Assembly (NCBI GenBank): GCA_028286385.1
Contig: JAQBRQ010000008.1
Location: 1-37,935, forward strand
DNA from: Candidatus Saccharimonadota bacterium
GTDB taxonomy: Bacteria > Patescibacteriota > Saccharimonadia > Saccharimonadales > UBA4665
Length of the DNA stretch: 37,935 nucleotides
Reading direction: 5' to 3'
The translations under genes were made by a program, and so were the position numbers. A model generated the notes under the pieces. It saw only the letters and a list, made by a program, of their open reading frames with translations, did not search any database and was not told the origin of the DNA. Below are positions 3,910 through 35,468 of this stretch, in pieces; position 1 is the stretch's first letter, and each line of letters starts with the position of its first letter.

Positions 3910-5027
3910 GCGCCGCGCCTAAACAAAAGGTCGCTATTGTTTGCGACTGGCTGACCGGCATCGGCGGCGCCGAACGAGTTGTGCTGGAGTTGCACCGGAT
4001 GTACCCCGACGCGCCAATTTACACCTCGCAGTACGACCCCAGCCGCATCAGTTGGTTCGACGATGCCGATGTTCGCACTACCTCGCTTCAAAAACTACCA
4101 AAGCGACTCAAAAAGTTTTTACCGCTATTGCGCGCCTGGACATTTAGCCGTCTAGATCTCAGCGACTACGACCTGGTAATTTCCAGTAGCGGCGCCGAAG
4201 CCAAAGGTATCAAAACCGGCCGGGACACTACTCATATCTGTTACTGCCACTCGCCGACGCATTATTATTGGATACGCCACGACGAATATCTCAAGAACCC
4301 GGGCTTCCCGCGAGGACTCAACTGGCTGGCCCGTTTTGGCCTTAAGGCCCTGGTTGGCCCACTGCAGCGTTGGGACAAGCATGCTGCCAAGCAACCTGAT
4401 GTTATCATCGCCAACTCCACCCACACTCAAGCAATGATCAAGCGCTACTACAAACGTGATTCGACGGTCGTGTTCCCGCCGGTAGATATTGATCGATTCA
4501 AGCCCCTTGGCAAGGCCACCTCGCGCCATGGCTTTGTGGTGGCTGGCCGCCAAACGCCCTACAAGCGCATCGACCTAGCCGTGCAAGCCTGCACCGACCT
4601 CAAAGTGCCATTGGTAGTGATTGGCGACGGCCCGGACCACAAACGGCTCGAGAAGCTGGCTGGCCGCAACGTGACATTTTTAAGCAACGTCAACGATAAC
4701 GACATCGTGCAGCACTTCCAATCCGCCCTCGGCTTCATCATGCCTAGCATGGATGACTTCGGCATCGTTGCCGTCGAAGCTCTAGCGGCCGGCACGCCAG
4801 TGATTGCCTACTCCCGCGGCGGCTCGCTCGATTACATAACCCCACGAACCGGCATATTCTTCGAAAAGCAAACCGTCAAAAGTCTGACTGCCGCCCTTGA
4901 GACTGCCCTTACCAAGTCGTTTAATTACGAACACATCGCCGAACACGCTGGGCAGTTCTCGGTGCCGGCTTTTCGTAAGAGCATGCAAGGCGTTATAGAC
5001 GAAAGCGTAGCCAAAAAAGCCTCATGA
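3906..5027 (+). CDS. Family 4 glycosyltransferase (WbaZ-like)
   Basis: A 373-residue GT-B fold enzyme. The N-terminal domain has the G-G-A-E-R-V acceptor-side motif near residue 20. The C-terminal domain has G-R-Q-T-P-Y-K-R-I-D, V-I-G-D-G-P and the donor-site motif D-D-F-G-I-V-A-V-E near 282, where Asp replaces the first Glu of the common E-x7-E pattern. It resembles mannosyl- or rhamnosyl-transferases of lipid-linked repeat-unit assembly. ATGA overlaps couple it to the phosphoglycosyl transferase before it and galE after it, so it probably adds the second sugar. Donor and linkage cannot be read from the sequence. Confidence 0.88.
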   Translation: MSAAPKQKVAIVCDWLTGIGGAERVVLELHRMYPDAPIYTSQYDPSRISWFDDADVRTTSLQKLPKRLKKFLPLLRAWTFSRLDLSDYDLVISSSGAEAKGIKTGRDTTHICYCHSPTHYYWIRHDEYLKNPGFPRGLNWLARFGLKALVGPLQRWDKHAAKQPDVIIANSTHTQAMIKRYYKRDSTVVFPPVDIDRFKPLGKATSRHGFVVAGRQTPYKRIDLAVQACTDLKVPLVVIGDGPDHKRLEKLAGRNVTFLSNVNDNDIVQHFQSALGFIMPSMDDFGIVAVEALAAGTPVIAYSRGGSLDYITPRTGIFFEKQTVKSLTAALETALTKSFNYEHIAEHAGQFSVPAFRKSMQGVIDESVAKKAS

Positions 5028-10216: not shown

Positions 10217-11452
10217 CTACCGCTCACGCCTTTGGACGTTTGGCGCAAACTGCTTTTTTCCCTTTGGCGCTGTGGGTGAAAGCGCTAGTTTTCCGATAAT
10301 GCTATCTAAGAACGCAACGGCGAGAATGACCATCCCTGGCCAGAATATCTTGAAATAGTGTAGCGTGCCGTACTTAATCGAATCTGGTGTACTTGCCCTG
10401 AATGATAGATAGAATATGAACGCTACACTTGTGGTCACAATAAACACCTTCCAGAACAACTTGCCTGTATTCCGTCTGAGCAGAATAACCGCTCCCGGTA
10501 TTGCAGCAATCACCCAGAACATGCTTATAAGCAAACCCCTGTCGTAGTCGATAGACCCCGCAAGCCTTGGGCTTACCAGCATGCCAAGCGAGGCATTAGG
10601 AACACGAGATAAATTGTAAGCACCAGCACCTTGGTCGCTACTTCCAACACCGCCGATGCCCAAGTGGTTAACATACGGTGTACGTAAAGGCGAACCAAAA
10701 TACTTGTAGTGCGAATACATAACGGGCACAATAAACAGGCCCATGCCAACGACCATAAATGCAGCGCTTTTAACCCATGGCTTGAGTGCGCCCCTGTATA
10801 AGGCACTTACCCCAAGAATTGTAAGCCAAAAAATATCGACATAGCGTGCAGCGAACGACCAACCTATAAGCAAGCCGACTACCAATGCGTGCCAGCGGGT
10901 TACTTTCTTTGCGGTGGCAGCAAGTAGGATTACAGCCATGGCCAGTAGGCAAATTGTGCTATTCCACGGTATGTCTACATAGTTAATTAGTGGCGTGGCA
11001 AACACCAGCCCAAACCCAGCCAACCACCCAGCGAGCGGAGATATAAAATGCTTGGCTGCTTTGTACACCGCAAATACCGTAAACAAAAAGGTTGCGAAGT
11101 TAAAAAATACGAATGGATCCGAATGAATACCAAGCCACAAGAATGGAACGGCAACCAATGGGTAGCCAATGCCGTATGTATATGTCTCATGAAGGCGCTG
11201 GAAATCAAAGTTTGCAAGCGTTTGGGCGAGCCTGAGATATTGGCTCTGGTCGTAGTAGCCAAACCAGCCTGCTTCATAGAGCGCCTTATCGTTAAGCCCT
11301 ATAAAGCTAAAAACGCCGGCTGGCCGCGCAGGATCTGTTAGGTAATAAAAGAAGAAGTATGCCGCAGAAGACAGTAACAGCATAACCAGTACCGGGTCTT
11401 TTTTGAGTGTCAATTTTGCTCGACTTATGTAGCTTATGTAGCGTAAAAACAT
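10217..11452 (-). CDS. Polytopic membrane protein, GT-C glycosyltransferase-like
   Basis: A 411-residue protein with about ten hydrophobic segments. A large first loop contains G-W-F-G-Y-Y-D-Q-S-Q-Y-L, an aromatic/Asp-rich stretch like the catalytic first loop of GT-C enzymes that use polyprenyl-phosphate-sugars. Y-G-I-G-Y-P and R-Y-V-D segments follow. It is first in the operon before GtrA- and GtrB-like genes, the position expected for the enzyme that places the flipped sugar. I do not recognise a specific family, and assignment to GT-C rests on topology and context. TATAAT at 11481-11486 (minus) lies 28 bases before the ATG. Confidence 0.65.
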   Translation of the reverse strand: MFLRYISYISRAKLTLKKDPVLVMLLLSSAAYFFFYYLTDPARPAGVFSFIGLNDKALYEAGWFGYYDQSQYLRLAQTLANFDFQRLHETYTYGIGYPLVAVPFLWLGIHSDPFVFFNFATFLFTVFAVYKAAKHFISPLAGWLAGFGLVFATPLINYVDIPWNSTICLLAMAVILLAATAKKVTRWHALVVGLLIGWSFAARYVDIFWLTILGVSALYRGALKPWVKSAAFMVVGMGLFIVPVMYSHYKYFGSPLRTPYVNHLGIGGVGSSDQGAGAYNLSRVPNASLGMLVSPRLAGSIDYDRGLLISMFWVIAAIPGAVILLRRNTGKLFWKVFIVTTSVAFIFYLSFRASTPDSIKYGTLHYFKIFWPGMVILAVAFLDSIIGKLALSPTAPKGKKQFAPNVQRRER

Positions 11453-11539: not shown

Positions 11540-12109
11540 ATGGTAAAAATAAAAAAACAATCCAAGCTTAATAAAAAAATACTACTCTTAGCCCTTATCG
11601 TGATAGCGATCGCGGGTGGTGGCTTCTACGCGAAGCTCGGAAGCGACAATAAGGTTGAGTCTGCAAAAAATACTGCGGAGAAGCAGAAAATAAACTATGA
11701 CCCTCCTACCGCTGAAGACAACAAGCGCGTTGATGACAACAAACAAAGAATTGTAAACCAGCAACAGCAACAAGGAGCACAGACTCCCCAAGACACAACC
11801 ACAAAAAAATCTGTTACTCCTATTATTAGCTACGCCGAACAAACCCAGGCGGGTGGAAATATTGAAGTCGGTGGTCGTGTTAGTGGTGTGTTCGAAGATG
11901 GTGGTACTTGCACAGCAACTTTCACCCAAGGGAGCAAAACATTTGTAAAATCCTCTACTGGCGTAAAAAACGTCAGTGATGTTGCGTGTCCCGCACTCAG
12001 CGCAGCATTTTCTGAATTCTTGGCGACTGGATCATGGAGTGTCACGCTCAGCTATGCTTCGTCCACGGCAACAGGGTCATCCGCTGCACGAATCGTGGAG
12101 GTACGCTAA
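11540..12109 (+). CDS. Membrane-anchored exported protein of unknown function
   Basis: A 189-residue protein from the ATG at 11540; a seven-codon upstream extension would lie inside the promoter. A lysine-rich start is followed by one hydrophobic segment (about residues 10-30) with no obvious cleavage site, so it is probably an inside-out anchor. Next comes a Gln/Asp/Asn/Thr-rich low-complexity linker (about 35-90) and a compact C-terminal domain with alternating beta-strand pattern and two cysteines (G-G-T-C-T and D-V-A-C) that could form a disulfide outside the cell. The fold may be immunoglobulin-like (inference). It is three bases upstream of the lectin-like gene, so the two products may work together at the surface. 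Confidence 0.7.
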   Translation: MVKIKKQSKLNKKILLLALIVIAIAGGGFYAKLGSDNKVESAKNTAEKQKINYDPPTAEDNKRVDDNKQRIVNQQQQQGAQTPQDTTTKKSVTPIISYAEQTQAGGNIEVGGRVSGVFEDGGTCTATFTQGSKTFVKSSTGVKNVSDVACPALSAAFSEFLATGSWSVTLSYASSTATGSSAARIVEVR

Positions 12110-12112
12110 ACT

Positions 12113-13825
12113 ATGAAGAAACTTTTACTCATCTTATTGCTGACTCTTAGCATAACGGTAGTCGCCACACCCCCACAGGTCGCAAATGCATTATCAGGGT
12201 CCGAATTCCAGGCAGGTCGAATTATGGATGACGGTGTATTCTTTAATTCCAACGGTATGGATGTAGCAACAATTCAGGCATTCCTGAACAGCAAAGTGCC
12301 AAGCTGCGATACCAATGGCGCACAGGCCTACGGCGGCACAACTCGTGCTGCCTACGGCGCTTCTAAAGGGCATCCTGCCCCATACACTTGCCTGCGCGAC
12401 TACAGACAAGAAACACCCTCAAAAGCGTCGGAATCTGGCCTCTGCAACTCATATGTTGGCGGCAACAAAAGTAGTGCCCAGATAATCTACGATATTGCTC
12501 AAAGCTGTGGCATAAGCCCCAAAGCTTTGATCGTATTACTAGAAAAAGAGCAGTCACTGGTAACTGACGATTGGCCGTGGGACACGCAGTATCGCAGCGC
12601 GACAGGCTATGGCTGTCCCGATACGGCTCCATGTGACGCTGAGTACTACGGATTTTTCAATCAAGTTTACAGTGCTGCCAGGCAGTTCAAGCGTTATAGC
12701 CGAGATGCCAGCTTATTTAGCTACCGCAGCGGCCGGAACAACTATATCCAATACAGCCCAAATGCGGCGTGCGGTGGCAGTGACGTGTACATTTACAACC
12801 AAACTACAGCTGGACTATACAACTACACTCCCTATCAGCCAAACGCATCCGCTCTTAGCAACCTAAACGGAGCTGGTGATGCCTGTGGAGCTTATGGAAA
12901 TCGTAATTTCTGGCGTATATACACCGAGTGGTTTGGCTCGACATTTGGACCAACAAATATTGTTGATAGCCCTGCTACTGTAAGCTGGGCAAGCGGCAGA
13001 CTCGACACACTAGTTCGCGGTGCCGACGGCGCACTTTGGCAAAAAACCTATGATGCAGCAGACGGTGGATGGAAGCCTTGGGCAAAAGTTGGCGGAACGA
13101 TTAGCTCAAGCCCTGCAGTGACTACCTGGGGAGCAGGTAGGCTTGACGTCTTTAGCACCAATTCATCAGGCGAATTGCAGCACAACTGGTATGGCGCGGG
13201 GGCATGGCATAGCTGGGAGTCTCTTGGCAGCCCGGCCCCAGGAATTTCACTTGTCTCAGCACCAGGCGCCGTAAGTTGGGCAAATGGCCGAATTGATATC
13301 TTTGGGCGTGGCAGCGACGGAGTCTTGTGGCAGAAATGGTACGACGCTAATGCCGGCGGGTGGCAACCTTGGGCAAGGCTTGGAGGTGTTCTTAATTCAG
13401 CACCTACAATTACGAACTGGGGTGTTGGCCGCTTAGACCTGTTCTCGATTGGGCCAGCTGGTGACCTGCAGCACTACTGGCACTCCAATGGCTGGCGAAC
13501 CTGGGAGTCATTAGGGACGCCAGCACCTGGCATAAAACTCACCTACGCACCAGGCGCCGTAAGTTGGGCAAATGGCCGAATTGATATCTTTGGGCGTGGC
13601 AGCGACGGAGTCTTGTGGCAGAAATGGTACGACGCTAATGCCGGCGGGTGGCAACCTTGGGTACGATTTGATGGAGTCTTGGACTCAGCGCCAACAGTTA
13701 CCTCGTGGCAACCTGGACGCATAGATCTGTTCTCTAAGGGCCCTGCAAATGATTTACAACACTACTGGCACTCCGATGGCTGGAGCACTTTTTGGGAATC
13801 CTTCGGTAAGCCTAACTCCAACTAA
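12113..13825 (+). CDS. Secreted protein: putative muralytic domain plus six-blade lectin-like propeller
   Basis: A 570-residue protein with a signal peptide (K-K hydrophobic core, cut probably after A-N-A near residue 26). Residues about 27-280 form a Cys-containing domain beginning F-Q-A-G-R-I-M-D-D; the segment C-G-I-S-P-K-A-L-I-V-L-L-E-K-E-Q-S recalls the helix with catalytic Glu in lysozyme-like transglycosylases. From about 285, six 48-residue repeats alternate between type A (L-W-Q-K-W-Y-D-A, G-G-W-x-P-W) and type B (L-Q-H-Y-W-H-S, W-E-S-L-G), resembling PLL-type lectin propellers (DUF346). Two A repeats are DNA-identical over 115 bp. Likely cell-wall or host-surface binding. The enzymatic role is inference from weak motif similarity. 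Confidence 0.8.
   Translation: MKKLLLILLLTLSITVVATPPQVANALSGSEFQAGRIMDDGVFFNSNGMDVATIQAFLNSKVPSCDTNGAQAYGGTTRAAYGASKGHPAPYTCLRDYRQETPSKASESGLCNSYVGGNKSSAQIIYDIAQSCGISPKALIVLLEKEQSLVTDDWPWDTQYRSATGYGCPDTAPCDAEYYGFFNQVYSAARQFKRYSRDASLFSYRSGRNNYIQYSPNAACGGSDVYIYNQTTAGLYNYTPYQPNASALSNLNGAGDACGAYGNRNFWRIYTEWFGSTFGPTNIVDSPATVSWASGRLDTLVRGADGALWQKTYDAADGGWKPWAKVGGTISSSPAVTTWGAGRLDVFSTNSSGELQHNWYGAGAWHSWESLGSPAPGISLVSAPGAVSWANGRIDIFGRGSDGVLWQKWYDANAGGWQPWARLGGVLNSAPTITNWGVGRLDLFSIGPAGDLQHYWHSNGWRTWESLGTPAPGIKLTYAPGAVSWANGRIDIFGRGSDGVLWQKWYDANAGGWQPWVRFDGVLDSAPTVTSWQPGRIDLFSKGPANDLQHYWHSDGWSTFWESFGKPNSN
13259..13373 (+). repeat. 115-bp exact direct repeat, copy 1
   Basis: Identical at every base to 13547-13661, 288 bp (96 codons, two propeller repeats) downstream. 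It encodes most of the second type A blade. The flanking bases differ on both sides. Confidence 0.95.
13547..13661 (+). repeat. 115-bp exact direct repeat, copy 2
   Basis: Second copy of the sequence at 13259-13373, encoding most of the third type A blade. Synonymous positions are also identical, while the type B blades between them have diverged, so copying or gene conversion is recent. Confidence 0.95.
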
Positions 13826-15801: not shown

Positions 15802-17550
15802 TTATGTACTCTGATTAGCTATCATTCGCCCTATAGTAGGCAATTTTACGTCAATGATAGTATCTTTGCACTTAGATATAGGCATCAGTATACGTGGATC
15901 TGTCGGCTTTCTAAAGTACGTTAGTGACTTTTTTGGATTACTACCACTCGTGATCTGAGTAAAGTTGTTGTAACTTATAGGTAAGGCTATGACTCCAGGG
16001 CCTTCACACGTTACCTTAAACCGCAGGATCAAGGGTTCGAAACGGTAGCGATCTGTCTGGGTCACCGTACAGTTCCCCTCTAAAACTGCTGTCTGGCGCC
16101 CTTGGTGGTACATGTCAGCATACAGCTGCAACGTGTCGAGCGTTCCGACCTCTTTGTTGTCGTAGTAAATTCGTGGCAGGTATTCACCAATACCCATCAG
16201 GGATGAGCCAGTGCCACTTGGACGTGCCGCAATCACGCCTTCGATCATCTTTGGGGTTATAAAACCATACTGAAACTGCTGCCAAATTGGCGAAAAAATT
16301 AGAAACGGTAACGCCCATACAAAGAGCAGGCCTGTTGCGATGCGCGTATTGTGTGTCTGGATAATTACAAATACCGCGACCAACATACTAAGCGGCGTTA
16401 TAAACGCCAGCAGCCTCCAGGGGAACTGTAGATACTGGAGCAACCCTATGTGTTGGTATAGTTGTTTCACATAATGAAGCTGCAATACAATAAACACAGT
16501 CGAAGGCAGAAACAATACAAATATAAGCCGCTCAGCTACCTGCTTTCGAAGCCAAGCAAATGCCTTTTTGCGCCTACCAATCAAGTTCACTAATAAGAAT
16601 GCTGTGCCGCCACATATTATGATCACCGTTCCAATATCGACCTGTACGGTAATGTCCTGGGGACGTTCTAGCCATTGGTAATTGCCATTGTAAACATACA
16701 GTTTAGCCGGCAAAAAATTCTCACTCGCCTCAAACCCGGATTGTGTTACTTTGCTCGGGTTGTAATCTTTTATAAAAGCTTTTTGCAACACTAATTGCGG
16801 TGTCATAAGCAAAACAAACAAGCCAACTGCCAGTAACGATTTCTTTGCTATGCGAGGTAAATTGCTCTTTTTCTGTGTAGTAAGAAAAATTGCATAGGCT
16901 ATCGTTAGTGGAATAAGTGAGTATAGCGCCATGGTATTATGCGCCATATACAGCACGAATAACACTGGTACGATCCATAGCGAAAAATGTCTGTCTACTA
17001 CCAATATTAGGCACCAGTAAAGCAGCCAGGGCACGACCATGAGCGCAGAGAACTCAGCCATCGCCCCGCGGACTAGCCAGTCAGTATAGGTGTAGTTTGA
17101 TAGAAGGAATAACTGGGGGGCTATAAAAATAATGCTGGTCTGCGGCGTAATTTTCTTGACCGCTTGACGCAAGCCATAAGCCCCAAACGTCATAAACAAC
17201 CCAATGCCGAATATCAGGGTAAACTTAATTGAGTTGCTAAGCATGTAAACAGGGCCAGTAACCATATAGAAAAGCTTATGGTAAAACAACGGCAACGGTG
17301 TCCCCATACCAATTCCATCGGCCGAAGACCAAACCGGGAAAAGATCACCCTGGCGCATATGATCCGCGTAAACTGCTATGCGATCAATGAATGCAAAACC
17401 TTCATGGTTTTGCGGCCAACCCGCTTGCCTAAGTACGGGTGATAGGCTGACACATACAACCAGCAGGGTTAGCAAAAAGAATCCAATTTCTAGCATTAGC
17501 TTTGGGCGCTTTGTTACAAAAGCTTGGTATTTCTTAAGCTTTCGTCTCAT
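15802..17550 (-). CDS. Large polytopic membrane protein (PTPS-related/GT-C-like)
   Basis: A 582-residue protein with about 12 hydrophobic segments in the first 440 residues, then a soluble C-terminal domain rich in beta-type sequence. The first outside loop has W-P-Q-N-H-E-G and F-P-V-W-S-S-A-D-G-I-G-M-G-T-P-L-P-L-F-Y-H, an arrangement seen in the poorly named 6-pyruvoyl-tetrahydropterin-synthase-related membrane family, which resembles GT-C/YfhO-type proteins. It heads the operon with methyltransferase, GtrA and ALG5-like genes, so it may be the transferase using the flipped sugar. TACTCT lies five bases before the ATG, a near-leaderless arrangement. No activity can be named with certainty. 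Confidence 0.65.
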   Translation of the reverse strand: MRRKLKKYQAFVTKRPKLMLEIGFFLLTLLVVCVSLSPVLRQAGWPQNHEGFAFIDRIAVYADHMRQGDLFPVWSSADGIGMGTPLPLFYHKLFYMVTGPVYMLSNSIKFTLIFGIGLFMTFGAYGLRQAVKKITPQTSIIFIAPQLFLLSNYTYTDWLVRGAMAEFSALMVVPWLLYWCLILVVDRHFSLWIVPVLFVLYMAHNTMALYSLIPLTIAYAIFLTTQKKSNLPRIAKKSLLAVGLFVLLMTPQLVLQKAFIKDYNPSKVTQSGFEASENFLPAKLYVYNGNYQWLERPQDITVQVDIGTVIIICGGTAFLLVNLIGRRKKAFAWLRKQVAERLIFVLFLPSTVFIVLQLHYVKQLYQHIGLLQYLQFPWRLLAFITPLSMLVAVFVIIQTHNTRIATGLLFVWALPFLIFSPIWQQFQYGFITPKMIEGVIAARPSGTGSSLMGIGEYLPRIYYDNKEVGTLDTLQLYADMYHQGRQTAVLEGNCTVTQTDRYRFEPLILRFKVTCEGPGVIALPISYNNFTQITSGSNPKKSLTYFRKPTDPRILMPISKCKDTIIDVKLPTIGRMIANQST

Positions 17551-17578: not shown

Positions 17579-19303
17579 ATGCTGACATCAATTCGAACAA
17601 CTTATATTACTCGGGCTAATCTCATTCAATTAGCACTTATAGCACTGGTTACACTCCCAGTAGTGATCTATGTATTTAAGTTTAGCATCTTATACCGCAA
17701 CGGGATTTTTGGCGGCGAAGACTGGGATTACTTTGCGCAATCTTACGAGGCGGCACGTGCAAGTATTCTTCACTATCACCAGTTTCCCTGGTGGAACGCC
17801 TGGTCAGTAGGTGGTGCACCGCTGTTTGCCAACCCGCAATTTGGGCTCTTCTCCATACAAACAGCCTTGGTCTTGCTGTTTGGTACAGTCGCTGGTCTGC
17901 ACTACGCCATGATGGCTTATTTCGTTCTGGGGTTCTGGGGCATGTACCTACTCCTGAGAAGGCTTGGTTCAAAAAGCCGCATAATAAGCATACTGCTGTC
18001 CTACATATGGGTATTTAGCAGCTTTAACGCATGGCACCTCGGCGGCGGCCACTTAAGTTTTGCCGTTTATCTACTGGCGCCTTGGGCATTCCTGACTTTG
18101 CTCAATATCCACAAGAGACGAGGCTGGATTTGGTTCATGCTAACCACATCACTATTAATCCACACCGCACCGCACTACCTGACCGTAGAAACGCTCGCAA
18201 TATGTGGAGCAATTGTAGCCGTGCAGCTCTATAGATACTGGAGAAGTCACCGAGGACTAGCGGTTCGACGTTATTTGCCGATCTTAAAGCCCTACTTGCT
18301 GGCCAGCATCGCGATTTTGGTACTTTGTGGATCAAAGTTACTGTACACTTTCCAGTTTACTCACGAATATCCAAGACTTACACCGCTTGATGCACCAGTG
18401 CCACCAAAGCTGTTTATCGCCGCCCTGCTATTCAGGCACGCCGTAGACCCGAGTGCCCTTACCGCTCCATACTCGCAACCATACGGCTGGGCCGAATATG
18501 CAAACTACTTTGGCATAGTGACACTTTTCTTGTTTGTGTATTTGGCCATTCGCAAGCTGGAAAGCATAAAAAATATGTCCACCAGAGACTGGTTAATCTT
18601 AGCTGCTACGTTAATCGCTGCTGCGCTTTCCCTAGGTGCCTTCTGGCGCTTTAGCCCGTTTAATATTCTTCACTACATGCCAATATTCAACCAAATGCGA
18701 GTTCCATCACGATTCCTCTGCTGGTTTGCGTTCGGAGTTATCCTCTTCTTGGGCAAACTACCTCGCAAGCCGATTGTGTATGTGCTATTAGTTATATCTG
18801 CTATAGATGTATTTGCAGCAAACTACGGAATCCTCAACTACCCTCAGCGACCCTACATCCAGGCACAGAAACCAGATAACACTTTCCAACAATATGAGTT
18901 TTACAAGACAGACCCTGCATTGGGACAAATTGGCATCCTAAGCATCCAAGACTTCCGCCTGTTACGCGCTACGCAGATGAATCAAGGAGAAATATACGGC
19001 TATGAGCCTCTCCTAAACATTGGCGAATATTACTACCTCCCGGGCACAACGCGCTGTGGCGTGAACAAAGGCTGCCCATTTGTAATTACCAAGAACGCAA
19101 CCGTGACAAGATGGAGTCCACATCAGATCGACCTGAAGCGAACAGGCGAAGGCCCAATAAAAGTTAATATGAACCCGGGTAAAGTCTGGAGAGTTAACGG
19201 CAAGAAGCCCTTTGCTAACGACAAAATACTCGAACTGCGTAAAGATTTTGTGATAGATGACCCAGCTCAAGATATTCATATACGTTATAATCCTTCACTG
19301 TAG
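17579..19303 (+). CDS. Large polytopic membrane protein, YfhO/GT-C-like
   Basis: A 574-residue protein with about 11-12 membrane segments and a short C-terminal outside domain of about 130 residues. The first outside loop carries G-G-E-D-W-D-Y-F and F-P-W-W-N-A-W-S-V-G-G-A-P-L-F-A-N-P-Q, matching in layout the E/D-rich first loop of the divergent neighbour at 15802-17550. The two may be distant paralogs. Such proteins are thought to attach sugars or other groups to glycans outside the cell. It is divergent from its neighbour across 28 bases and followed, after 64 bases, by a methyltransferase gene. Confidence 0.65.
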   Translation: MLTSIRTTYITRANLIQLALIALVTLPVVIYVFKFSILYRNGIFGGEDWDYFAQSYEAARASILHYHQFPWWNAWSVGGAPLFANPQFGLFSIQTALVLLFGTVAGLHYAMMAYFVLGFWGMYLLLRRLGSKSRIISILLSYIWVFSSFNAWHLGGGHLSFAVYLLAPWAFLTLLNIHKRRGWIWFMLTTSLLIHTAPHYLTVETLAICGAIVAVQLYRYWRSHRGLAVRRYLPILKPYLLASIAILVLCGSKLLYTFQFTHEYPRLTPLDAPVPPKLFIAALLFRHAVDPSALTAPYSQPYGWAEYANYFGIVTLFLFVYLAIRKLESIKNMSTRDWLILAATLIAAALSLGAFWRFSPFNILHYMPIFNQMRVPSRFLCWFAFGVILFLGKLPRKPIVYVLLVISAIDVFAANYGILNYPQRPYIQAQKPDNTFQQYEFYKTDPALGQIGILSIQDFRLLRATQMNQGEIYGYEPLLNIGEYYYLPGTTRCGVNKGCPFVITKNATVTRWSPHQIDLKRTGEGPIKVNMNPGKVWRVNGKKPFANDKILELRKDFVIDDPAQDIHIRYNPSL

Positions 19304-33798: not shown

Positions 33799-34014
33799 GA
33801 GTTGTGCCCAGGCCATGGCCCGTCGAAGCTTTTCTGTCGGCTAATGGCGTAGTTTTCACAATAGATAACCTCAAATTTGGTCTACTTATCCACCAATTCG
33901 TCAGTCTTGTCCACAGATTACTAGATGGGAGCGTTGGCTGTGTATAAATCTACCCCCGTTGTCATGATTTTCGTAGTTTTGACCAAGTTTTAAAAAAGAA
34001 TCTCAGAAAAGGTG

Positions 34015-34058
34015 TGGAAAACTTCCCCTCTGTCGGGTATATTAGGGATACATTAGGA
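34015..34058 (+). promoter_or_regulatory. Promoter and ribosome site of dnaA
   Basis: TGGAAA (34015-34020), 17 bp and TATATT (34038-34043) form a moderate promoter. The -35 lies inside the minus-strand DnaA box at 34013-34021, so DnaA could repress itself. AGGAG at 34054-34058 is six bases from the ATG at 34065. Confidence 0.5.
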
Positions 34059-34064
34059 GCGGTT

Positions 34065-35468
34065 ATGCAGCACGATGGTTTGTGGCAAGCAGTTTTGGGG
34101 GAGATAGAGCTATCCGTTTCTCGCGGCAACTTTGTCACGTGGTTTAAAACGACGACCTTGCTCAAGCAAGATGACGGTCTTATTGTAATTGGCGTCACCA
34201 GCATCTTCATTAAGCGAACCCTCGAAAAGAAATACACCGAGCTCTTAACGACTGTTTTGCAGAAAAATGGAGTCAAAGTTGACAGCGTTGAGTTCAAGAC
34301 GGTGTCATCCAGCTCGCCGAAGCCGTCTGATCATCGCGATAAACCAGTTGTACTCAGCGAGCTACAAGCCAAGCAATCAAACGTCACCTCTTCTGCGCCA
34401 GCGACTCAACAGTTTGCCGGCGACCCAAAGAATGTTTTGTCCCATGACTACGGCCAGGGATTAAACGAACGCTACACGCTCGACAACTTCGTCGTTGGTG
34501 ATGGCAACGAGCTGGCTTTTGCCGCTTGCCAGTCAATTGCCGGTCAACCGAGCACAAAGTATAACCCGTTGTTGCTCTATGGCGGCGTTGGCATTGGCAA
34601 AACTCACCTAATTCAGGCCGTTGGCAATGCCATTGCCGCTCACGATCCAAAAGCTAAGATCCTTTACATATCGACTGAGCAGTTCGTCCGTGAATTCGTG
34701 CAGGCGTTAAGACTGCGCACCACCGCGGCCTTTGCCAGCTACTACCGCACAGCCGATGTCTTGATCGTTGACGATATACAGTTCATCGCCGGCAAAGATA
34801 AGACACAGGAAGAATTCTTCCACACCTTTAACACGCTGCACCAGGCTAATAAGCAGATTATTATGAGCTCCGATAAACCACCGAAGGAAATCCATGGTCT
34901 CGAGGCACGTTTGCAGTCACGTTTCGCCGGCGGCATGAGTATCGACATGCAAATCCCTGACTTTGAAACCCGTTGCGCCATCATCGAAACCAAAGCCGCC
35001 AATCATGGCACTGCCTTGGACCCAGAAGTTATCGAATACCTGGCAACTAATGGCCAGACCAACATTCGTGAGCTCGAGGGCGCTCTTAACCAACTACTGG
35101 CCTGGTGTGAAATGCGCAATATTGAACCGACACTCGACCTGACAGCCAGCTTGCTGAACGTCAGCAAAACTAGGCCGAAGCATTTGAGCGCCAAGCAGAT
35201 CATTGAACGAACCGCGCGTCATTTCCAGATCCCAATAGAAGACATTGTTGGTCCAAAGCGCGACAAAGATATTGTAGTCCCCCGCCAAGTTGCCATGTAC
35301 ATGCTCCGAAACGAACTTCATCTAAGCTTCCCAAAAATTGCCCGCGAGCTTGGCCGCAAAGATCATACCACTGCCATCCATTCAGTCGACAAAATTCAAA
35401 AAGAATCACAAGTTGATGCTGCGCTGCGCAACGCTATTTCCGAAATTAAGGAGCATCTCTATGCGTAA
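34065..35468 (+). CDS. dnaA: Chromosomal replication initiator DnaA
   Basis: A 467-residue protein with four domains. Domain I (about 1-75) binds DnaB/partners; domain II is a Ser/Pro-rich linker. The AAA+ domain has Walker A G-G-V-G-I-G-K-T at about 173-180, Walker B L-I-V-D-D near 233-237 and the initiator-specific helix around F-A-S-Y-Y-R. Domain IV has P-R-Q-V-A-M-Y and the DnaA signature G-R-K-D-H-T-T-A-I-H. ATG at 34065 is chosen because AGGAG lies at the right distance and the reading frame upstream to 34014 overlaps the promoter. Confidence 0.97.
   Translation: MQHDGLWQAVLGEIELSVSRGNFVTWFKTTTLLKQDDGLIVIGVTSIFIKRTLEKKYTELLTTVLQKNGVKVDSVEFKTVSSSSPKPSDHRDKPVVLSELQAKQSNVTSSAPATQQFAGDPKNVLSHDYGQGLNERYTLDNFVVGDGNELAFAACQSIAGQPSTKYNPLLLYGGVGIGKTHLIQAVGNAIAAHDPKAKILYISTEQFVREFVQALRLRTTAAFASYYRTADVLIVDDIQFIAGKDKTQEEFFHTFNTLHQANKQIIMSSDKPPKEIHGLEARLQSRFAGGMSIDMQIPDFETRCAIIETKAANHGTALDPEVIEYLATNGQTNIRELEGALNQLLAWCEMRNIEPTLDLTASLLNVSKTRPKHLSAKQIIERTARHFQIPIEDIVGPKRDKDIVVPRQVAMYMLRNELHLSFPKIARELGRKDHTTAIHSVDKIQKESQVDAALRNAISEIKEHLYA

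Follow-up and report, generated by a model that had tools for sequence, protein, structure and literature searches.

A predicted lysozyme-type domain with an exchangeable lectin-like tail and an anchored partner in Saccharibacteria

The genome of a Saccharibacterium (assembly GCA_028286385.1; 832 kb, 92% complete) encodes a two-module protein in which an N-terminal domain (N-domain) of predicted lysozyme-type fold is joined to a six-bladed PLL-like propeller and, directly upstream of it, a membrane-anchored partner with an Ig-like-looking domain. Related lineages hold the N-domain and the anchored partner constant and exchange the tail. The pair is read here as an anchored, lectin-aimed wall hydrolase working at the contact with the host, a reading with about an even chance of being correct, in which we infer the catalysis, the sugar ligand, the physical partnership of the two proteins and the host-wall target. 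The elements themselves are of known kinds: PLL-like propellers have been described, and so have lysozyme-type enzymes that carry a binding tail. Databases and the open-licence literature yielded neither the N-domain as a named family, nor an anchored Ig-like protein as its partner, nor its sharing between Saccharibacteria and Microbacteriaceae; the titles and abstracts of the open-licence full-text literature likewise yielded no paper on the N-domain or the partner pair in Saccharibacteria.

Gene pair, N-domain and propeller

The window, i.e., the whole stretch of DNA analysed, comprises 37,935 nucleotides of contig JAQBRQ010000008.1. Its relevant features are as follows.

11540 to 12109, + strand: membrane-anchored partner, 189 aa, ATG at 11540; called Ig-like by its look
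12113 to 13825, + strand: gene of the finding, 570 aa, start ATG; signal peptide, N-domain and six-bladed propeller
12113 to 12193, + strand: signal peptide, residues 1-27, read from the sequence
12194 to 12955, + strand: N-domain, residues 28-281, predicted lysozyme-superfamily domain nearest to GH73 (AlphaFold2 model and VIA-align)
12545 to 12550, + strand: Lys145-Glu146 (K118-E119 of the mature domain), where the LIVLLEKEQ helix ends; Glu146 as candidate catalytic residue; both invariant in 146/146 proteins
12959 to 13102, + strand: blade 1, type A; W199- and W214-equivalents kept, Thr replacing the W202-equivalent
13103 to 13252, + strand: blade 2, type B; Gln at the W199 position
13253 to 13393, + strand: blade 3, type A; 127/141 nt shared with blade 5
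13394 to 13540, + strand: blade 4, type B; Gln at the W199 position
13541 to 13681, + strand: blade 5, type A; 127/141 nt shared with blade 3
13682 to 13822, + strand: blade 6, type B; Gln at the W199 position

The pair sits inside a long surface-polysaccharide locus (window 2467-29538 and 34014-35468) with glycosyltransferases, GtrA-like proteins, GDP-mannose-4,6-dehydratase-like epimerases, a bacterial sugar transferase and an FkbM methyltransferase; dnaA is found on the same contig. Two divergent open reading frames of this stretch, 15802-17550 (- strand, 582 aa) and 17579-19303 (+ strand, 574 aa), gave no Pfam match at E 0.001. Relatives of the gene were also sought in viral contigs, phages and plasmids, where none were found, so a viral or plasmid origin was dropped; a PHROGs search with the protein returned nothing.

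The N-domain spans about 254 residues. The first-pass annotation had likened one of its helices to the catalytic helix of lysozyme-like enzymes, and the predicted structure supports this likeness. The AlphaFold2 model, obtained with 74 sequences, is a confident one (pLDDT 95.9, pTM 0.92). Foldseek gave no match at E <= 0.001; of its entries, LytB had the highest probability (0.44). VIA-align 2, run on the 126 chains ranked highest by Foldseek, aligned the domain with LytB (GH73) over 140 of 256 residues (Z 9.4, rmsd 3.0), a moderate match followed by AtlE (Z 7.8), the autolysin of C. perfringens (7.4), SagB (6.1), MltC (5.7) and goose-type lysozyme (5.3). Altogether, 35 of the 36 entries listed by VIA-align are lysozyme-type enzymes or phage proteins with such a domain, with two entries from phages and those of GH124 counted among them.

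Sequence searches with the window N-domain in Pfam, NCBIfam, PHROGs and the PDB returned no match, and a profile search of the PDB produced chance matches only. The GH73 profile (PF01832) did not match the window domain and matched one of 28 members at E 0.078. In hhalign, the KEQ helix falls on a GH73 helix, with its Glu on the invariant Glu of that family, at a probability of only 8.6%, and a second alignment reached 1.3%; at these profile probabilities, the attempt to assign the domain to GH73 by sequence failed. Overall, there is moderate support, drawn from the model, for a lysozyme-type fold nearest to that of GH73. The candidate catalytic residue, Glu146, lies on the helix singled out earlier and belongs to a group of residues (Lys118, Glu119, Gln157, Thr205, Tyr209, Tyr211, Thr212 and Pro213 of the mature domain) which are the same in all 146 proteins collected, a set covering two phyla and 20 distant Patescibacteria in which some genomes are counted twice. 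An overlapping protein set holds 97 distinct N-domain sequences.

The propeller starts at residue 283 with six repeats of 48, 50, 47, 49, 47 and 47 residues. They had been described as running alternately A-B, and the alternation is distinct: blades of the same type (1-3-5 and 2-4-6) are 43-89% identical and blades of different types 30-41%, and among the ten possible 3+3 splits the odd/even one is the best, with a difference of means of 25.8 points against 4.4 for the runner-up. The least similar pair of blades scores 50, compared with 26 on average and 55 at most in 2,000 shuffled pairs. The 127 of 141 nucleotides shared by blades 3 and 5 point to recent copying within the gene, by duplication or gene conversion.

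The closure into six blades, which the first-pass annotation had proposed to check by structure prediction, is seen in the AlphaFold2 model, a closed propeller with AofleA as its best structural match (Z 31.9, rmsd 2.3, 276 residues), next to AAL (Z 30.6) and PLL4 (Z 26.4, rmsd 3.7). Both the propeller and the lysozyme-like fold are thus present in the models, and the absence of either had been named as an outcome speaking against the annotation. For the mature two-module protein, the model has a pLDDT of 90.3 and a pTM of 0.62, which leaves the mutual orientation of the modules loose.

By sequence, the nearest solved structures are PHL, PLL2 and PLL of Photorhabdus (phmmer, E 4e-49 to 2e-46; PHL 4.1e-49), and PF03984 (DUF346) is matched at 34.1 bits over a cut-off of 22. 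DUF346 was the sole match in a Pfam scan of the protein at E <= 1, with no membership in the AAL/FleA sequence family, and the CV39L family lectin model (NF052350) scored 44.8 bits, below its curated cut-off of 350.

According to the PHL paper, the ligand of PHL is contacted by Thr194, Trp199 and Trp214 in a hydrophobic site and by Arg186, Glu188, Trp202, Gln and Trp in a polar site. When these positions are mapped onto the repeats from sequence alone, which is also how the exposed aromatic pockets named in the first-pass annotation were assessed, the A blades (1, 3 and 5) retain both Trp residues of the hydrophobic site, with Ala or Ser as the counterpart of Thr194, and the B blades (2, 4 and 6) have Gln instead of Trp199. 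Since the A blades keep the Trp pair and the B blades carry Gln, the alternation suggests two kinds of putative sugar pocket, in agreement with the earlier proposal. The same pattern (Trp in A, Gln in B) is found in all six blades of an uncultured Saccharibacterium (L031). This is the closest named relative among the best 80 of at least 588 N-domain-encoding stretches, and it has both modules, with N-domains 80% identical.

Anchored partner, tails and distribution

The scan of named genomes revealed at least 588 stretches encoding the N-domain. The best 80 of these, a sample biased to close relatives, comprise 35 loci from Patescibacteria (Saccharibacteria by title in most cases) and 45 from actinobacteria, including Agromyces, Plantibacter, Cryobacterium, Leifsonia, Cellulomonas and Phycicoccus.

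The anchored protein had been noted three bases ahead of the gene and suggested as its holder. Its stop at 12109 indeed precedes the ATG at 12113 by three bases, and it is composed of an N-terminal hydrophobic helix, a low-complexity linker and the Ig-like-looking domain. A Cys pair (C124, C150) and Trp166 are invariant in the partner. Pfam and the PDB offered no convincing relative of it, with chance matches only in the PDB profile search. Among the best 80 of at least 588 loci, a homologue stands directly upstream of the N-domain gene at 34 of the 35 from Patescibacteria and at 20 of the 45 from actinobacteria. It was also present in 16/16 further genomes of the same order or class, a set chosen for having the N-domain, and in 2/20 distant Patescibacteria. 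The partners from Patescibacteria have a transmembrane helix in 33 of 34 cases (the one without it is cut by a contig end) and a lipobox in 0/34; the actinobacterial partners have a lipobox in 20/20. Hence the type of anchor varies while the anchoring is kept.

Each of the other neighbours in the window occurs near the gene at only 0 to 8 of the best 80 of at least 588 loci; a wider syntenic operon is therefore ruled out, and the pair alone is conserved. A membrane protein encoded at 10217-11452 of the window corresponds, at 57% identity, to a neighbour of the pair at L031:1072-2226. Further neighbours kept above 50% identity were observed at two loci only among the best 80 of at least 588, namely in L031 and, for a methyltransferase, in L086.

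The tails are of many kinds. Those of the 35 Patescibacteria proteins matched N_BRCA1_IG (7), B_lectin (4), FG-GAP_3 (3), LGFP (2), PA-IIL (2), DUF5648 (1) and others; the PLL-like DUF346 tail was found in 1/35, the window gene standing outside that set. Among the 46 actinobacterial tails, LGFP (10), CW_binding_2 (2), FG-GAP (2), CBM_4_9 (1) and others were recognized, and many tails had no match. The 51 Saccharibacteria-side tails of at least 100 residues fall into 12 clusters that share no detectable similarity with one another. Where two N-domains are 60% identical or more (108 pairs), the tails lack detectable similarity in 89 cases, e.g., L031 and L032, whose N-domains are 72% identical. 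As to whether the architecture recurs in other CPR genomes, which had been a suggestion of the first-pass annotation, the N-domain and the partner are indeed widespread, and the exact tail is one of at least a dozen unrelated kinds. The N-domain proteins of two distant Patescibacteria (L163 and L164) end in a tail which we label, presumptively, as dockerin-like.

The N-domain was detected in 43 of 60 Saccharibacteria relatives by a single-sequence search and in 110 of 286 genomes across the phylum by a profile search, with 20 of 22 in the same order among those listed. It is rare in the actinobacteria as a phylum (10/296, the centre genome included) and near-universal in Microbacteriaceae (139/150). 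Since these free-living bacteria have it almost universally, parasitism is not the sole use of the N-domain. In several Microbacteriaceae there is, in addition, a second copy that is short, at some 300-400 residues. In Leifsonia sp. 71-9, two N-domain genes lie close by (598-1299 and 4001-4699 of locus L107), and the tails in this strain resemble cell-wall-binding-2 repeats. Leucobacter, a microbacteriacean, hosts a Saccharibacterium. In the first tree, 44 of 45 actinobacterial rows formed one clade inside Saccharibacteria (SH-aLRT 98). In AU tests on a set thinned to 51 rows, neither the monophyly of the close Patescibacteria (p 0.65) nor that of the actinobacteria (p 0.67) was rejected, and the direction of transfer read from the first tree was therefore given up.

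Proposed function and alternative readings

According to the proposed mechanism, the Saccharibacterium would secrete the two-module protein, whose N-domain, as an undescribed branch of the lysozyme superfamily, would cleave the glycan strands of peptidoglycan with Glu146 as the general acid. The propeller would bind surface sugars and bring the enzyme to them, and the membrane-anchored partner would hold or position the hydrolase at the surface of the epibiont. Cutting would take place where the epibiont touches its actinobacterial host, and related lineages would retarget the enzyme by swapping the sugar-binding tail.

The strongest rival is housekeeping of the cell's own envelope, in which the N-domain would trim the peptidoglycan of the epibiont during growth or division, the partner would share that envelope, and the tail would attach to the polysaccharide of the cell's own surface, tails differing as surface polysaccharides differ between lineages. 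The presence of the N-domain in 139/150 free-living Microbacteriaceae, where the LGFP and CWB2 tails would bind their own wall, is in line with this, as are the location of the window gene within a surface-polysaccharide locus near dnaA and the failure of the GH73 profile (PF01832) to match anything in the own genome, G339 or G341, the three searched. However, the own genome has an SLT-family match, i.e., another candidate wall enzyme, and secreted PLL-type lectins, like lectin tails of the mannose type, are more typical of foreign-glycan binding. Self-directed trimming is regarded as possible, if somewhat unlikely.

Another possibility is that the N-domain retains the lysozyme fold as a glycan-binding module, making the protein a non-catalytic, bivalent adhesin seated on the anchored partner. 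In favour of this are the weak sequence signal to GH73 (8.6% and 1.3% in hhalign, E 0.078 for the single member) and the fact that, besides the Glu, no residue important for GH73 catalysis could be placed on the N-domain, whereas the Lys-Glu and six more residues invariant in 146/146 proteins of two phyla better suit an active site, which makes the loss of catalysis improbable. It is very improbable that the protein, which itself has a signal peptide only and no anchor, is released as an agglutinin or scavenger, capturing glycans from solution or debris and liberating sugars or muropeptides for nutrition, and that its link with the upstream gene is one of co-transcription only, since an anchored partner kept across two phyla with two anchor types is hardly expected of an unrelated neighbour.

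If the pair is an anchored, lectin-aimed wall hydrolase, it bears on how Saccharibacteria choose and open their hosts, which is an open question. The two-gene unit is widespread in Saccharibacteria and combines a predicted wall-cutting head without a named family with a tail swapped between relatives; the exchange of tails may be how relatives hold and open different hosts. Glu146 and the alternating Trp/Gln of the blades are named residues that make host choice testable, and the unit connects the epibionts with an actinobacterial family of the host phylum, Microbacteriaceae, which carries the same pair. A more far-reaching version, which is rather doubtful, would see the pair as a host-range cassette of Saccharibacteria: a constant partner and hydrolase with a swappable tail picking the actinobacterium to be opened, shared with Microbacteriaceae through transfer between the lineages of epibionts and hosts, and having SEML1_0890/0891 as its counterpart.

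Comparison with known systems

The closest likeness of the propeller by sequence is with PLL, PHL and PLL2-5 of Photorhabdus, with which it shares the repeat sequence and the GR[LI][ED] core; its A blades also have the Trp pair of the hydrophobic site in common with them. The PLL lectins are described as seven-bladed in the parts of the reports available (PMC5584973, PMC6943638), whereas the propeller considered here has six blades in strict A-B alternation, is fused to an enzyme-like domain and has Asp where the polar site of PHL has Glu188. The first-pass assignment to the PLL-type lectins is therefore retained for the sequence relationship (PF03984 and PHL at E 4e-49) and corrected for the blade number: the propeller is PLL-like and, on this count, not a PLL lectin. 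In structure, it most resembles the six-bladed fucose lectins AofleA, AAL, AFL and SapL1 (AofleA at Z 31.9), with an identity of 15-18% and blade sequences of the PLL kind setting it apart. The N-domain, in turn, has its top structural match among the GH73 N-acetylglucosaminidases (LytB, AtlE, Atl, SagB; Z 9.4 for LytB) and differs from them by its own conserved Cys, KEQ and YTP(Y/H) motifs.

Among the systems of epibiotic bacteria, lytic transglycosylases are encoded by Patescibacteria and have been proposed as openers of host envelopes, as stated in the available part of a review (PMC11665869). PilX2, a minor pilin of the N. lyticus type IV pilus, is likewise found at the surface of a Saccharibacterium and carries a beta-propeller at its C-terminus, for which an adhesin role has been proposed; a lysozyme-like domain is not mentioned in the accessible portion of the source (PMC12206443). 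In S. epibionticum, the published Tn-seq results (PMC10633639) list SEML1_0315, in which there is a dockerin domain, among the essential proteins, together with two adjacent genes, SEML1_0890 (FnIII) and SEML1_0891 (lectin-like VCBS), which are essential for epibiotic growth and were speculated to target host glycans. The likeness of these adjacent Saccharibacterium genes to the pair described here lies in the FnIII and lectin-like domains, the comparison being one of gene order and domain description only; on this analogy, SEML1_0890/0891 may be the counterpart of the anchored partner and the predicted hydrolase.
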